This document shows, in pieces, positions 2,184-61,892 of a DNA stretch of 64,000 bases. The notes beneath the pieces were generated by a model. The model was not told the DNA's origin. It was given only the letters and a program-made list of their open reading frames with translations, and searched no databases. Within the stretch, counting starts at the first letter, position 1. The number at the start of each line of letters is the position of its first letter. The DNA lies in NCBI RefSeq assembly GCF_003569045.1, contig NZ_BFCB01000002.1, positions 1,159,506 through 1,223,505 on the forward strand, read 5' to 3'. The DNA comes from Aggregatilinea lenta. GTDB taxonomy: Bacteria > Chloroflexota > Anaerolineae > Aggregatilineales > Aggregatilineaceae. Made by a program: the position numbers and the translations under genes.

Positions 2184-3863
<1,680 letters not shown>

Positions 3864-7916: not shown

Positions 7917-8066
7917 ATGCCCCCCCATCCCCTGACCCCTTTCCCACGCAAGCGGAGGGAAGGGGAATAAGGCAAGAACCGGGCGGAGCAAGCCCCGCCC
8001 CTACAGAACCACCGGGCATTGTTTGTCTCCCCTCTCCAACTTGATTGGAGAGGGGCCGGGGGTGAG
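7917..8066. repeat. Composite intergenic repeat cluster
   Basis: This 303-base gap between genes (7874-8176) is mostly repeat. It holds an arm-rich segment (7921-7967), a palindrome cgggcggagcaagccccgcccctac (7980-8004) and a second palindrome of type cccctctccaa-cttga-ttggagagggg (8029-8054) followed by ccgggggtgagg. The last two, with the 25-base spacer between them, recur as a unit at 43798-43884. No gene was found in the gap. Confidence 0.75.
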
Positions 8067-14352: not shown

Positions 14353-14402
14353 GCAAAGCACCTCACCCCCGGCCTCTCTCCAATCGGATTGGAGAGGGGA
14401 GA
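14353..14402. repeat. Palindromic repeat in a 322-base gap
   Basis: The gap 14266-14587 carries no gene. It holds a short simple-sequence stretch (gcaaaagcaaaagcaaaac, about 14303-14321), this repeat (cctcacccccggcctctctccaatcggattggagaggggag), and a terminator at 14428. The arms cctctctccaat / attggagagggg match the second palindrome at 8029 and 43847. Confidence 0.7.
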
Positions 14403-15298: not shown

Positions 15299-15324
15299 AG
15301 GGCGGGTTAGAAACCCGCCCCTAC
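15299..15324. repeat. Palindromic intergenic repeat (GTAGGGGC family)
   Basis: The sequence ggggcgggttagaaacccgcccctac (minus-strand end GTAGGGGC) lies between converging genes. It shares its core with 14428 and 43798. Confidence 0.75.
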
Positions 15325-43797: not shown

Positions 43798-43884
43798 CGG
43801 GCGGGTTTCTAGCCCGCCCCTACAAAATCCACCGCATTTCTGTTTGTCTCCCCTCTCCAGCGTCGACTGGAGAGAGGGGTGAGG
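43798..43884. repeat. Composite palindromic repeat
   Basis: The sequence cgggcgggtttctagcccgcccctac (43798-43822) is followed about 25 bases on by cccctctccagcgtcgactggagagagggg (43850-43878) and gtgagg. The whole arrangement, including the spacer words caccg.gcatt and tgtttgtctc, is the same as at 7980-8066. It lies between converging genes. Confidence 0.75.
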
Positions 43885-54170: not shown

Positions 54171-57100
54171 ATGCCTGACGAAAAACCATTCGTACATCTG
54201 CATGTGCATACCGAATACAGCCTGCTCGACGGCCTGAGCCACATCAAGCGACTGGTCAAGCGCGCGCAAGAAACCGGCATGAAGTCGCTGGCGATCACCG
54301 ATCACGGCACGATGTTCGGCGTGATCGACTTCTACCGGGCGAGCAAAGCGGCGGGCATCAAGCCGATCATCGGCATGGAAGCCTACCTCGCGCCGCGCGG
54401 CATGGAAGACCGCGATCCGCAAAAGGACACCAAGCCGTACCACATGCTGCTGCTGGCGAAGAACCAGACCGGCTACCAGAACCTGCTCCAGCTCGCCTCA
54501 GCGGCGCAGCTCAAAGGCTATTACTACCGCCCGCGCATCGACCACGACTTCCTGGCCGCGCACGCAGACGGGCTGATCGCCACCAGCGGCTGCCTCGCCG
54601 CCGAGATCCCGCGCCTGGTCGAGCGGGGGCAGGACGACGACGCGCTGGCAAAAATCGGCTGGTATCAGGACGTATTCGGCGCGGAGAACTTCTTCCTGGA
54701 GCTTCAGGAGCACGACATCCCGCTGCTGCGGACGCTCAACCGCTGGCTGCTCGAAAACCGGGGATACGCCAATCCGCCGCTCATCGCTACCAACGACGTG
54801 CACTACATCCTCGAAGAGGATTTCGACGCGCACGACACGCTGCTGTGCATCCAGACCGGCAACCTGAAGACCGAGCAGAACCGCCTGCACATGAGCGATC
54901 CGAGCTATCACCTGCGCACGCCGGACGAGATGTGGCGGCTGTTCGCGGACGTGCCGGACGCGCTGATGAATACGCTGCACATCGCGGATATGTGCGACGT
55001 GAACCTGGACTCGGAAGGCTATCACCTGCCCGTCTTCCCCGTGCCGGACGGCTACACCGCCGATACGTATCTGCGCAACCTGTGCGAACGCGGCCTGCAG
55101 TGGCGTTATGGCAGCCGCGCCGACACCGACGAGGCCCTCAAAGAACGGCTGGACTATGAGCTGGGCATCATTCATAACATGGGCTTCGACACGTATTTCC
55201 TGATCGTGTGGGACCTGTGCGAGTTCGCGCGGCACGCGGACATCTGGTGGAACGTGCGCGGGTCCGGCGCGGGCAGCGTGGCAGCCTATACGCTGGGCAT
55301 CACCAGCATCGACCCGCTGCGTAACGGCCTGCTGTTCGAGCGCTTCCTGAATCCGGGCCGCGTCTCCATGCCTGACATCGACATGGACTTCCCTGAAGAC
55401 CGCCGCGCGGAGATGATCCAGTACTGCGCGCAGAAGTACGGCGAGGACAAGGTCGCGGCGATCATCACCTTCGGGACGATGGGCAGTAAGGCTGCCATCC
55501 GCGACGTGGGCCGCGCGCTCGACATGCCGATCGAGGAAGTGAACCGCATCGCGCGCCTGATCCCGACCGCTGCCAAAGCAATCAAGTTCGACGACGCGCT
55601 GAGCGACGATCCCGAACGCGCCCTGCCCGACCTGAAAGCGGTCTACGCGCAGGACGGCGCGGCACGCAAGGTGATCGATGTGGCGCGCCAGCTCGAAGGC
55701 GTCACGCGGCACGCCAGCACGCACGCAGCGGGCATCATCATCGCGGACCGACCGCTGGTCGAGTACATTCCGCTGCACCGCCCCACCAGCGGATCGGACG
55801 ACGACGCGCCGGTCAAGCAGGTGACACAGTTCCCGATGGAAACGTGCGAATCGATCGGCCTGCTGAAGGTCGACTTCCTGGGCCTCTCGACGCTGACCAT
55901 CGTGCGCCTGGCCTGCGACCTGATCGAAGAGCAGCACGGCGTGCGCTACGACCTCTCGAACATCCCCTACCGCCCCGACCCGGACAAGCCGGACGAGGTG
56001 CGCATGATCGCGGAAACGTTCGAGATGCTCAGCCGGGGCGAGACGATCGGCGTGTTCCAGCTCGAATCGCAGGGCATGCGGCGCATGCTGACCGACATGC
56101 GCCCGCGCAAGTTCGAGAACATTGTCGCGGCGGTGGCACTTTACCGCCCCGGCCCAATGGACTACATCCCGACCTATAACCGCCGCCTGCACGGCGACGA
56201 GGACGTCACCTACCTGCACCCCAAGCTGGAGCCGATCCTGGAAGAGACCTACGGAATTTGCGTCTTCCAGGAACAAATTATGCAGATCGGCGCGCAGTTG
56301 TTCGGCTATTCGCTCGGCGAAGCGGACCTGATGCGCAAGGCCGTCTCCAAGAAGAAAAAAGAAGATCTGTTCAAACACCGCGAAACATTTATCCAGCGCG
56401 GGCCGGATCACGGCGTCGATCCCGACTCGGCCAATCGAATCTTCGACGACATCGAGTTCTTCGCGCGGTATGGATTCAACAAGTGTTTGCCGGAAGATGT
56501 CGAGGTCATCGACGCAGCCACCGGACGCCTCGTGCGGATTGGGGACCTGGCGTCCGGCGCGGCCAGCATCGAGCACACGCTCACCTGTAATACGGAGCGG
56601 CTGCGGCTTCAGCCAGGCGTCGTGACACACGTGCACGCGAACGGCGTCAAGCCGGTGTATCGCCTCACCACGCAGTCGGGGCGGCAGATCGAAGCGACGG
56701 CCAACCACCCGTTCTACACCTTCGACGGCTGGCGGCTGCTGGGAGATCTGAGCATCGGGGAGCCGGTCGCCGTGCCGCGCTGCATCCCGGTCGAGGGCCG
56801 CCGCAAATGGCCGGAAGAACGATTACAGGGACTCGCCGAAGAAATTGCTACAAAGCGGTTTGAAGTCAATGTCGAGCTACCCGCTGAGTTTTTCGAGCTA
56901 ACGAACCAGCAGTTGAGCGCCTTCATCACGCAACTGTGGCGCACGGTAGAAGCTAATCCATTCCAGACCGCATCCGCGCGTCTGGCACACCAACTACAGC
57001 ATATACTCTCGCGCCTCATCGTATGGAGTGACATTACCCACGCACGGAGCGGTTACACACTGATCATCTCCGAAGCAATCGCTGAATACAGTCTGGCAGA

Positions 57101-59042
57101 TCAGGCGCTTCCCGTAGGGGCAATTCATGAATTGCCCCTACGCAGAACGTCCGCTTCCTCCCCATTAAAGAATTTCCGACCGCCCAAAGTTGATGGCGAC
57201 ATCTACTGGGACAAGGTCGTGTCGGTCGAGTATGTGGCCGACAAACCGACCTACGATCTGACCGTAGCCGACACGCACAACTTTGTCGCCAACGACTTCA
57301 TCGTGCACAACTCGCACGCCGCCGACTACGCCGTGTTGACATGCCAGACCGCGTTCCTCAAGTGCCACTACCCGCACGAGTACATGACCGCGCTCATGAC
57401 CGTGCACCGCGACGACTCGGCCAAGGTCAGTCTGTTCGCCGCCGACTGCAGCCGCATGGGGATCGAGGTGCTGCCGCCCAACGTCAACGCCAGCAAACTC
57501 AACTTCAGCATCGAAACCCTGGAAGACGGCAAGCGCGCGATCCGCTTTGGGCTGGCGGCGATCAAAAACGTGGGCGTCACGCCGCTGGAGCACATCATCG
57601 CGCAGCGCGAAGAGGATGGCCCCTTCCGCGACCTGGAGGATTTCTGCCGCCGGGCCGATCTGCGCATCGTGCAGAAGCGGGCGCTGGAATCGCTGATCCG
57701 TGTGGGCGCGCTGGACCAGTTCGGCACGCGCCCGACCCTGCTCGCCGCGATGGACCGCATGGTCCGGTTCTCGGCGGATTACCACAAAGCGCAGGATGTC
57801 GGCCAGATCAGCTTGTTCGGCGACGCGACTGGCGTCACGTTCGATGTTGAACAGAGCCTGCTCAGCAATCTGCCTGACATCGAGCAGGCCAGCCGCCGCG
57901 ACATGCTGCGCTGGGAAAAGGAACTGGTCGGTTTATACGTCACCGATCACCCGCTGCGTACGCTCGAAGCACAGTTCGCCAGCGCCAACATCAAGTCCAG
58001 CGCAGACCTGATTGAGGAGGGCGATGCCGCGCACGATAGGGCCGTTCAGGTGGCCGGACTGGTGACGGACATCCGCAACATCGTCACCAAGAAGGGTGCG
58101 GCGATGGCGATTCTCACGCTGGAAGACATCACTGGCACGCTGAGCGTGGTCATGTTCCCGCGCACGTGGGAGAAATACCGCGACGTGGTCAGCGAAGACG
58201 CGGTGATCGTGGTACGCGGCAAGGCCGATACGGGTCGCGGCGACGTCCAGGTGATCGCGGATGAGATCCGCCAGGAGATCGAAACGGTCGAGGCGGTGGA
58301 AGAAATGCGCAAGCTGGATAGCATGCGCCTATCGTGGATGGACGACGCGCCGCCCGGCGACGAAACCTCGTACGACGACGAAACCGGGGAGCCGGAAGCG
58401 CCGGAGCCTGCCCCCGCGCGCCGCGCCGCCGGGCCGGTTATGCCCGCCACGGCGGGCGCAACCGTCGCGCCCATTCCGCCTGTGGAGCCGCCCTCTGCGC
58501 CGCGCACGGTTGAAGAACCCCCGGCGCACGTCGGCCCGATGGTCAGCGACCGCGAGATGCCCGGCTGGCTGGAAGCGGACATGGACAACGGCTGGACGCC
58601 GCCCCCGGCGCTGGCTTACCAGGACGACACCGGCCACGTGATCGGCGTGATGGAGCCGGAGAACGGCAACGGGCATGTGCAGGAATCGACGCCGGACTTG
58701 GCGGAGTCCGGCGAGCGTCCCGGTCTATCGCTTCACCCGCGAAAGCGCCGCCCCAAGCCGGAACCCAAACCTGCCGCGCCGCCGCAGCCGAGCCGCCTGC
58801 TGAAGCTGACCATTCCGCGCTCCGGGGATTCCTCGCGTGACCGGGCCAAGCTGCGCCGCCTGCACGGCATCCTGACGCAATATCCCGGCCCCGATCGCTT
58901 CTGCTTCCTGGTGCCGGGACCCAACCAGAAGCCGACGCGCATGGACTTCCCGAAGTATCCGATCGCCATTAACGACGACGTGCTGAACCTCATGCGCCAG
59001 ATGGTAGGATCGGAGAACGTAATCATCGAGTCGTTGGAGTGA
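54171..59042 (+). CDS. dnaE: DNA polymerase III alpha subunit with intein
   Basis: The 1623-residue frame is replicative DnaE plus one in-frame intein (residues 772-1047); the spliced protein would be 1347 residues. The PHP domain starts FVHLHVHTEYSLLDG with ITDHGTMFG. The palm active-site Asp pair is in PDIDMDFPEDRR, and a further polymerase segment is TFGTMGSKAAIRDVGR. The intein lies after ARYGFNK, before SHAADYAVLTCQTAFLK. Towards the end come the helix-hairpin-helix region, an OB-fold (VQVAGLVTDIRNIVTKKGAAMAILTLEDITG) and a Pro/Glu-rich tail of about 200 residues before a final domain. A terminator follows. Confidence 0.95.
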   Translation: MPDEKPFVHLHVHTEYSLLDGLSHIKRLVKRAQETGMKSLAITDHGTMFGVIDFYRASKAAGIKPIIGMEAYLAPRGMEDRDPQKDTKPYHMLLLAKNQTGYQNLLQLASAAQLKGYYYRPRIDHDFLAAHADGLIATSGCLAAEIPRLVERGQDDDALAKIGWYQDVFGAENFFLELQEHDIPLLRTLNRWLLENRGYANPPLIATNDVHYILEEDFDAHDTLLCIQTGNLKTEQNRLHMSDPSYHLRTPDEMWRLFADVPDALMNTLHIADMCDVNLDSEGYHLPVFPVPDGYTADTYLRNLCERGLQWRYGSRADTDEALKERLDYELGIIHNMGFDTYFLIVWDLCEFARHADIWWNVRGSGAGSVAAYTLGITSIDPLRNGLLFERFLNPGRVSMPDIDMDFPEDRRAEMIQYCAQKYGEDKVAAIITFGTMGSKAAIRDVGRALDMPIEEVNRIARLIPTAAKAIKFDDALSDDPERALPDLKAVYAQDGAARKVIDVARQLEGVTRHASTHAAGIIIADRPLVEYIPLHRPTSGSDDDAPVKQVTQFPMETCESIGLLKVDFLGLSTLTIVRLACDLIEEQHGVRYDLSNIPYRPDPDKPDEVRMIAETFEMLSRGETIGVFQLESQGMRRMLTDMRPRKFENIVAAVALYRPGPMDYIPTYNRRLHGDEDVTYLHPKLEPILEETYGICVFQEQIMQIGAQLFGYSLGEADLMRKAVSKKKKEDLFKHRETFIQRGPDHGVDPDSANRIFDDIEFFARYGFNKCLPEDVEVIDAATGRLVRIGDLASGAASIEHTLTCNTERLRLQPGVVTHVHANGVKPVYRLTTQSGRQIEATANHPFYTFDGWRLLGDLSIGEPVAVPRCIPVEGRRKWPEERLQGLAEEIATKRFEVNVELPAEFFELTNQQLSAFITQLWRTVEANPFQTASARLAHQLQHILSRLIVWSDITHARSGYTLIISEAIAEYSLADQALPVGAIHELPLRRTSASSPLKNFRPPKVDGDIYWDKVVSVEYVADKPTYDLTVADTHNFVANDFIVHNSHAADYAVLTCQTAFLKCHYPHEYMTALMTVHRDDSAKVSLFAADCSRMGIEVLPPNVNASKLNFSIETLEDGKRAIRFGLAAIKNVGVTPLEHIIAQREEDGPFRDLEDFCRRADLRIVQKRALESLIRVGALDQFGTRPTLLAAMDRMVRFSADYHKAQDVGQISLFGDATGVTFDVEQSLLSNLPDIEQASRRDMLRWEKELVGLYVTDHPLRTLEAQFASANIKSSADLIEEGDAAHDRAVQVAGLVTDIRNIVTKKGAAMAILTLEDITGTLSVVMFPRTWEKYRDVVSEDAVIVVRGKADTGRGDVQVIADEIRQEIETVEAVEEMRKLDSMRLSWMDDAPPGDETSYDDETGEPEAPEPAPARRAAGPVMPATAGATVAPIPPVEPPSAPRTVEEPPAHVGPMVSDREMPGWLEADMDNGWTPPPALAYQDDTGHVIGVMEPENGNGHVQESTPDLAESGERPGLSLHPRKRRPKPEPKPAAPPQPSRLLKLTIPRSGDSSRDRAKLRRLHGILTQYPGPDRFCFLVPGPNQKPTRMDFPKYPIAINDDVLNLMRQMVGSENVIIESLE
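56484..57311 (+). other. DnaE intein with degenerate endonuclease region
   Basis: The intein runs from Cys1 (CLPEDVEVIDAATG) to the terminal His-Asn (FIVHN) followed by Ser as the +1 residue, in all 276 residues. Splicing motifs look intact: block B has TANHPFYTFDGW (TxxH), and block F/G has TYDLTVADTHNFVANDFIVHN. At 276 residues it is shorter than inteins with a full homing endonuclease. The middle still has recognisable endonuclease-like wording (VELPAEFFELTNQQLSAFITQLWRT...ARLAHQLQHILSRL), but the acidic DG-type catalytic motif is absent (LWRTVEA). The insertion point GFNK/SHA is only a few residues from the site of the cyanobacterial split DnaE intein. Confidence 0.92.
57113..57142. repeat. 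GTAGGGGC-type palindrome inside the intein coding sequence
   Basis: The 30-base perfect palindrome (cgtaggggcaatt-catg-aattgcccctacg) is exactly ten codons long and in frame. It encodes most of LPVGAIHELPLRRT, a peptide unlike the rest of the intein. It has the same GTAGGGGC ends as the intergenic elements and lies in the dispensable segment between the endonuclease remnant and the C-terminal splicing block. Confidence 0.9.
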
Positions 59043-59265: not shown

Positions 59266-59290
59266 GTAGGGGCAGGTTTGCAACCTGCCC
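59266..59290. repeat. Palindromic repeat (GTAGGGGC family) near the prmA stop
   Basis: The sequence gtaggggcaggtt-tgc-aacctgccc repeats the family's end with another core (CAGGTT/AACCTG). A related partial copy (aagccctgcccctat) follows at 59326-59340. Confidence 0.75.
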
Positions 59291-61864: not shown

Positions 61865-61892
61865 GTAGGGGCGTATAGCCATACGCCCCTAC
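61865..61892. repeat. Palindromic repeat between dnaK and dnaJ
   Basis: The sequence gtaggggcgtat-agcc-atacgcccctac has perfect 12-base arms with GTAGGGGC ends, the clearest intergenic copy. It sits in the gap of 254 bases between dnaK and dnaJ, which has no gene. Confidence 0.85.

Follow-up and report, generated by a model that had tools for sequence, protein, structure and literature searches.

The window (the whole 64,000-nt stretch of DNA analysed here) belongs to the 6.2 Mb genome of Aggregatilinea lenta (five contigs) and contains a dnaE gene that is interrupted by an intein placed between the extein residues FNK and SHA (Table 1). The N- and C-terminal splicing motifs, Cys1, the terminal His-Asn and the nucleophile at position +1 are all present, and the intact end motifs together with the essential host gene suggest that this intein still splices. 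Both of the LAGLIDADG motifs that mark a homing intein have been lost. Residues 34-99 and 237-276 can be aligned with the solved mini-intein 4o1r, in which only two residues stand in for residues 100-236; the residues encoded by the palindrome described below therefore lie outside what a mini-intein fold needs. An AlphaFold2 model built from the single intein sequence, with no alignment, reached a pLDDT of 41 and was unusable.

Table 1. Features of the dnaE intein, related hairpins in the window and palindromes in related inteins
Feature	Position in window	Strand	Basis or remark
dnaE, DNA polymerase III alpha subunit, intein host	54171..59042	+	Family context and sequence reading
dnaE intein, 276 aa, Cys1 to His-Asn	56484..57311	+	Pfam Intein_splicing 5.5e-24; NCBIfam intein_Nterm, intein_Cterm
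N-terminal splicing domain, residues 1-99	56484..56780	+	Alignment to solved mini-inteins and relatives
LAGLIDADG endonuclease remnant, both motifs lost	56781..57113	+	Alignment to full-length relatives
28-nt GTAG-type REP GTAGGGGCAATTCATGAATTGCCCCTAC	57114..57141	.	In frame, VGAIHELPL; within the 30-nt palindrome 57113-57142
Non-conserved linker 3' of palindrome	57144..57191	+	Alignment
C-terminal splicing domain, residues 237-276, DIYWD...VHN	57192..57311	+	Mini-intein alignment, profiles
Related intergenic hairpin, end CCCCTAC	15300..15324	.	
Related intergenic hairpin GTAGGGGCAGGTTTGCAACCTGCCC, GTAG end unpaired	59266..59290	.	
Intergenic member of main subfamily, GTAGGGGCGTATAGCCATACGCCCCTAC	61865..61892	.	
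G232 intein			In-frame palindrome GTAGGGGCGCTGCTCTGCTGCGCCCTGTGGGAGCGTATTGCAATACGCCCCTAC
G309 intein, 187 aa			Two GTAG palindromes in place of endonuclease
G353 intein			In-frame palindrome GTAGGGGCTTGGCGGCGCCAAGCCCCTAC
G333 intein			Two GTAGGGACG hairpins
G304 intein			Two CCCCTCTCC...GGAGAGGGG elements and one GTAG hairpin
G331 intein			Two other hairpins
G313 intein			Diverged palindrome copies

Within the intein, positions 57113-57142 form a perfect 30-base palindrome, CGTAGGGGCAATTCATGAATTGCCCCTACG, whose arms CGTAGGGGCAATTCA (57113-57127) and TGAATTGCCCCTACG (57128-57142) are 100% complementary with a gap of 0. The dnaE reading frame stays open across it, and codons 57114-57143 encode VGAIHELPLR, which are intein residues 211-220. 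The original prediction of a perfect palindrome coding for this peptide was therefore accurate, and alignment with relatives bears out the site that it gave, downstream of the endonuclease remnant and upstream of the C-terminal splicing block.

The palindrome is one member of a large family, as had been claimed. The exact 28-mer GTAGGGGCAATTCATGAATTGCCCCTAC occurs 15 times in the genome and at 53 sites when up to three mismatches are allowed (reversed control, 0), and palindromes of the form GTAGGGGC-N4..30-GCCCCTAC number 99 (reversed control pattern, 0), with GTAGGGGCGTATNGCNATACGCCCCTAC and the intein type as the two main ones. In the window the octamer GTAGGGGC is found 10 times against 1.5 expected, a count reached by 0 of 100 shuffles. 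With a length of 28 nt, inside the 20-40 nt range of the class, a GTAG end and many dispersed, mostly intergenic copies, the element resembles GTAG-type repetitive extragenic palindromic (REP) sequences in form and in dispersal. A second dispersed family in the window, CCCCTCTCC...GGAGAGGGG followed by GGGGGTGAGG, lies at 8029-8055, 14376-14396 and 43853-43874, and has 174 copies in this genome, 640 in G311 and 120 in G304.

It might be supposed that the intein codons merely happen to be palindromic, through protein conservation or by chance, since the peptides at several of these places begin with a conserved V-G-A. However, V-G-A is a mere reading of GTAGGGGC, 14 further genomic sites carry the identical 28-mer, only one of them within a similar protein, and a 15-bp stem with zero loop is expected about 6e-5 times per 64 kb window (4^-15 estimate). 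This supposition is scarcely credible, and the 15 identical copies refute it. Among 29 further genome copies, only one, in a RAYT-like gene, has clearly coding flanks in the shared frame, although short flanks make this a weak test.

The flanks of the 15 exact copies are unrelated beyond GTAG...CTAC, and the outer C/G pair of the intein copy is only partly shared, so the repeated unit is 28 nt and not 30. Because it is palindromic, the 28-mer encodes the same peptide, VGAIHELPL, in both orientations, and only one of its three phases lacks a stop, which is the one used in the intein. Two details of the original prediction had to be given up at this point. The element cannot be said to add ten codons, as the unit is 28 nt and an empty site in a close relative was not found among the class, family and order genomes searched; nor is its length a multiple of three, as two more bases or a small indel would be needed. 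On its own, a 28-nt insertion would break the frame, and another two bases, perhaps the outer C and G, must derive from the target or the element. The need for these bases and the failure to find an empty site both count against the insertion explanation. As for the claim that these elements demonstrably move, identical copies amid unrelated flanks argue for movement, although they record its presumed outcome and not an observed event.

Searches for dnaE inteins across the class (298 genomes), the order (154) and the family (18) yielded 59 distinct inteins at the same site. Forty of these are full-length (411-454 aa), most with clear LAGLIDADG motifs, and 19 are endonuclease-less. GTAG palindromes occur in 6 of the 19 endonuclease-less inteins and in 0 of the 40 endonuclease-bearing ones. 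Overall, about 8 of the 19 have palindromes of dispersed families in frame past the endonuclease remnant and upstream of the C-terminal D(I/V)YWD block, while 11 of the 19 are without such a hairpin, which counts against the insertion explanation. The intein of G310 (L063), whose palindrome has an in-frame stop but which runs into the contig end, was left uncounted. The GTAGGGACG type is dispersed in the G333, G331 and G353 genomes and not in the window's family; as the dispersal of this type and of CCCCTCTCC shows, the inteins checked carry repeat types dispersed in their own genomes. The palindromes at this place, and thus the peptides, differ among relatives and are missing from endonuclease-bearing ones, so the match is DNA-driven, and the finding that the original prediction had named as its refutation, the same segment without the palindrome at the DNA level, was seen in no relative.

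The contrast between the two intein classes extends to hairpins in general. Of stems of at least 8 bp with loops of up to 8, the endonuclease-less linkers (6,594 nt) contain 12, where shuffles average 1.0 and never exceed 4, and the endonuclease-bearing middles (35,265 nt) contain 4, where shuffles average 5.7; the rates are 1.8 and 0.11 hairpins per kb. In the window, the corresponding values are 1.5 for intergenic and 0.26 for genic DNA, and the hairpin density of endonuclease-less linkers is that of intergenic DNA. With shared ancestry ignored throughout, the difference of 6/19 versus 0/40 in GTAG palindromes gives p=6e-4; two narrower comparisons within the order, which count against the explanation, give p=0.019 for GTAG palindromes (6/18 versus 0/17) and p=0.06 for any stem (8/18 versus 2/17). 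In a maximum-likelihood tree of the splicing domains, endonuclease presence changes 12 times, at least 6 of them forced by supported branches, and palindrome-bearing shortened inteins require 7 changes, at least 3 of them forced. The G232 intein pairs with the full-length intein of G311, and that of G353 with the full-length intein of G355. Thus palindromes were gained several times independently, and the endonuclease was likewise lost on several separate occasions. The splicing domains of the G311 (L068) and G232 (L019) inteins are nearly identical, one with a full endonuclease and the other with a palindrome-bearing remnant; the endonuclease of this pair may have been regained by homing.

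A different order of events is conceivable, in which palindromes first invaded the endonuclease region and their copies then recombined or slipped against each other, so that the domain was removed and a repeat stayed near the junction; repeats would then drive intein shrinkage. The palindromes do lie where the endonuclease went missing, and in G309 and G353 they make up nearly all of what replaced it. Such a history needs palindrome-bearing intermediates, yet none of the 40 endonuclease-bearing inteins has a GTAG palindrome; furthermore, in the window intein and that of G232 about 13-15 codons separate the palindrome from the point at which homology resumes, and many shortened inteins have no palindrome. 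We regard a deletion scar as improbable. Still less probable is a palindrome kept for a function in dnaE, whether as an RNA hairpin that slows translation or as a useful peptide loop of the intein: the predicted hairpin is strong (-20.9 kcal/mol, z -7.2 versus shuffles), but the palindromes, their numbers and their positions differ among lineages or none is present, and the solved mini-intein dispenses with the segment.

The reading that we favor, with a probability of roughly 0.8, is that a GTAG-type REP inserted into the linker of an endonuclease-less dnaE intein. The intein would first have lost its homing endonuclease, leaving a linker, and a small REP copy would then have inserted into this linker in its only stop-free phase. 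Being outside the splicing fold and hardly constrained in sequence, the linker would tolerate repeats much as intergenic DNA does, and selection would retain only those insertions that neither close the frame nor damage the splicing blocks. The REP itself was probably mobilised by a RAYT-type HUH tyrosine transposase.

A candidate for such an enzyme is encoded in the same genome, on the minus strand at about 627.1-627.9 kb of contig G000:C2 (L053 1166-1948). This 261-codon frame gives a split match to NF047646 and reads ...MPNHVHGIIMIEDGERP[VGAIHELPLP]NTRYRRR...WQRNYYEHIIR, with an exact 28-mer in frame directly after the HUH motif; no GTAG palindrome lies within 400 nt outside the frame. Its score of 60 bits is under the NCBI cut-off of 80, which counts against the favored reading, and the low value perhaps results partly from the insertion splitting the match. 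The sole results of a PF01797 search had been an IS200/IS605 TnpA-TnpB element and, in a receiver-domain protein, a weak match, and the reading drawn from it, that the genome has no RAYT, was overturned by the NF047646 match. A 1175-aa protein (L228 846-4373; G000:C2 about 864.8-868.4 kb) combines a response-regulator receiver domain with a weak Y1_Tnp-like domain at its C-terminus that lacks an evident HUH motif. Long ORFs of this kind, with a similar match, are found across the order, and the domain is perhaps that of a domesticated transposase.

The 28-mer also occupies the same loop of RAYT-like proteins in Brocadia (L138), Gracilimonas amylolytica (L145) and a proteobacterial MAG (L172), so that the arrangement is found in the window's genome and three other phyla. 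These are 3 of the 118 exact 28-mers listed in other genomes, against about 0.1 expected on a generous estimate. In Zixibacteria (L095), a palindrome of the other type sits in this loop. Perfect palindromes also lie at both ends of, or just outside, other RAYT genes in the order and in plasmids; plasmids gave four weak RAYT homologues, two of which were examined and have palindromes just outside and no internal copy. These arrangements fit a role of REPs as non-autonomous RAYT substrates, with transposition as the presumed route. RAYT homologues were not found in viral contigs, and palindrome counts across the order show no link with Y1_Tnp genes that is evident by eye. In another RAYT group (L242 in G312 and L248 in G311), the perfect palindrome AGACTTCGGAAGTCTTCGAAGACTTCCGAAGTCT lies on both sides of the gene, and in L248 a short related stem is also present inside it, after HUH. 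A further RAYT-like protein (L247, about 3019-3682, and L249; also in other genomes of the family) has LPDAVRLIVGP in place of HUH and is perhaps a catalytically dead, domesticated RAYT.

The exact 28-mer is present in at least 115 stretches of public genomes from more than ten phyla. Record titles among the matches listed name Cyanobacteria, Nitrospirae, Omnitrophica, Planctomycetes, Zixibacteria, Deltaproteobacteria, Spirochaetota, Bacteroidetes, Balneolaceae, Ignavibacteria, Binatia, Terriglobia and Chloroflexi. Such conservation across phyla is unusual for so short a mobile repeat and may reflect horizontal spread or convergence. A search for the peptide in other genomes, proposed as a check and made with VGAIHELPL, did uncover further in-frame coding copies: as judged from reading the translations, without a family search, they lie in a restriction-modification protein (twice), a P-type ATPase, an arginyl-tRNA synthetase, a FabF-type synthase, a YchF-type GTPase and a SelA-type protein. 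One might imagine the 28-mer as a protein-compatible mobile element, a translatable module that rides in frame within the gene of its transposase, as seen in at least four phyla, and that repeatedly enters genes, with decayed inteins as one sink; we consider this doubtful.

If the insertion reading is correct, the locus holds three nested layers of selfish DNA: an essential polymerase gene houses an intein, and the decayed portion of that intein houses a REP. Small mobile repeats seem to meet a natural trap in endonuclease-less inteins, since the linker accumulates them in the manner of intergenic DNA, with the frame preserved by the splicing blocks on either side. In addition, the RAYT-like genes with an in-frame 28-mer offer a concrete candidate enzyme/substrate pair for an element whose exact sequence spans more than ten phyla.

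The peptide VGAIHELPLR was not found in the literature searched, and the octamer GTAGGGGC appeared only in unrelated papers; papers joining inteins and repetitive extragenic palindromic sequences were, by title, only unrelated ones (the search lay outside most subscription journals). The class itself is already known: GTAG REPs are short palindromes with a GTAG end, dispersed, mostly intergenic, RAYT-linked and present in Chloroflexi, and they sometimes lie in frame in genes, including dnaE of Rickettsia conorii and dnaE2 genes (Di Nocera, De Gregorio and Rocco, 2013; PMC3733652). The main text of that study makes no mention of inteins. Decayed inteins as a repeated REP landing place, and REPs inside RAYT frames, appear to be undescribed in the literature searched.

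The intein palindrome shares with published GTAG REPs its size, GTAG end, dispersal and in-frame placement in a replication gene. It differs in that the host is an intein linker, which several families enter at the same place in independent lineages, and in that GTAG, unpaired in the published elements (PMC3733652), is here paired and present at both ends, the palindrome being perfect. Rickettsia palindromic elements are likewise short palindromic repeats in frame in protein genes, but their ends are CGTC (PMC3733652) and their sequences and hosts are others. The RAYT-like gene resembles known RAYTs in its HUH motif, tyrosine region and similarity to NF047646, and its relatives in the order and on plasmids have palindromes at their ends; the RAYT descriptions consulted place repeats so that they flank or overlap gene ends (Nunvar, 2010; PMC2817692), whereas the gene of the window's genome and the three in other phyla hold the palindrome inside the frame, after HUH. 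Finally, like other endonuclease-less mini-inteins, the dnaE intein has retained its splicing blocks and lost its LAGLIDADG motifs, but, unlike them, it has a linker made partly of a dispersed genomic palindrome.
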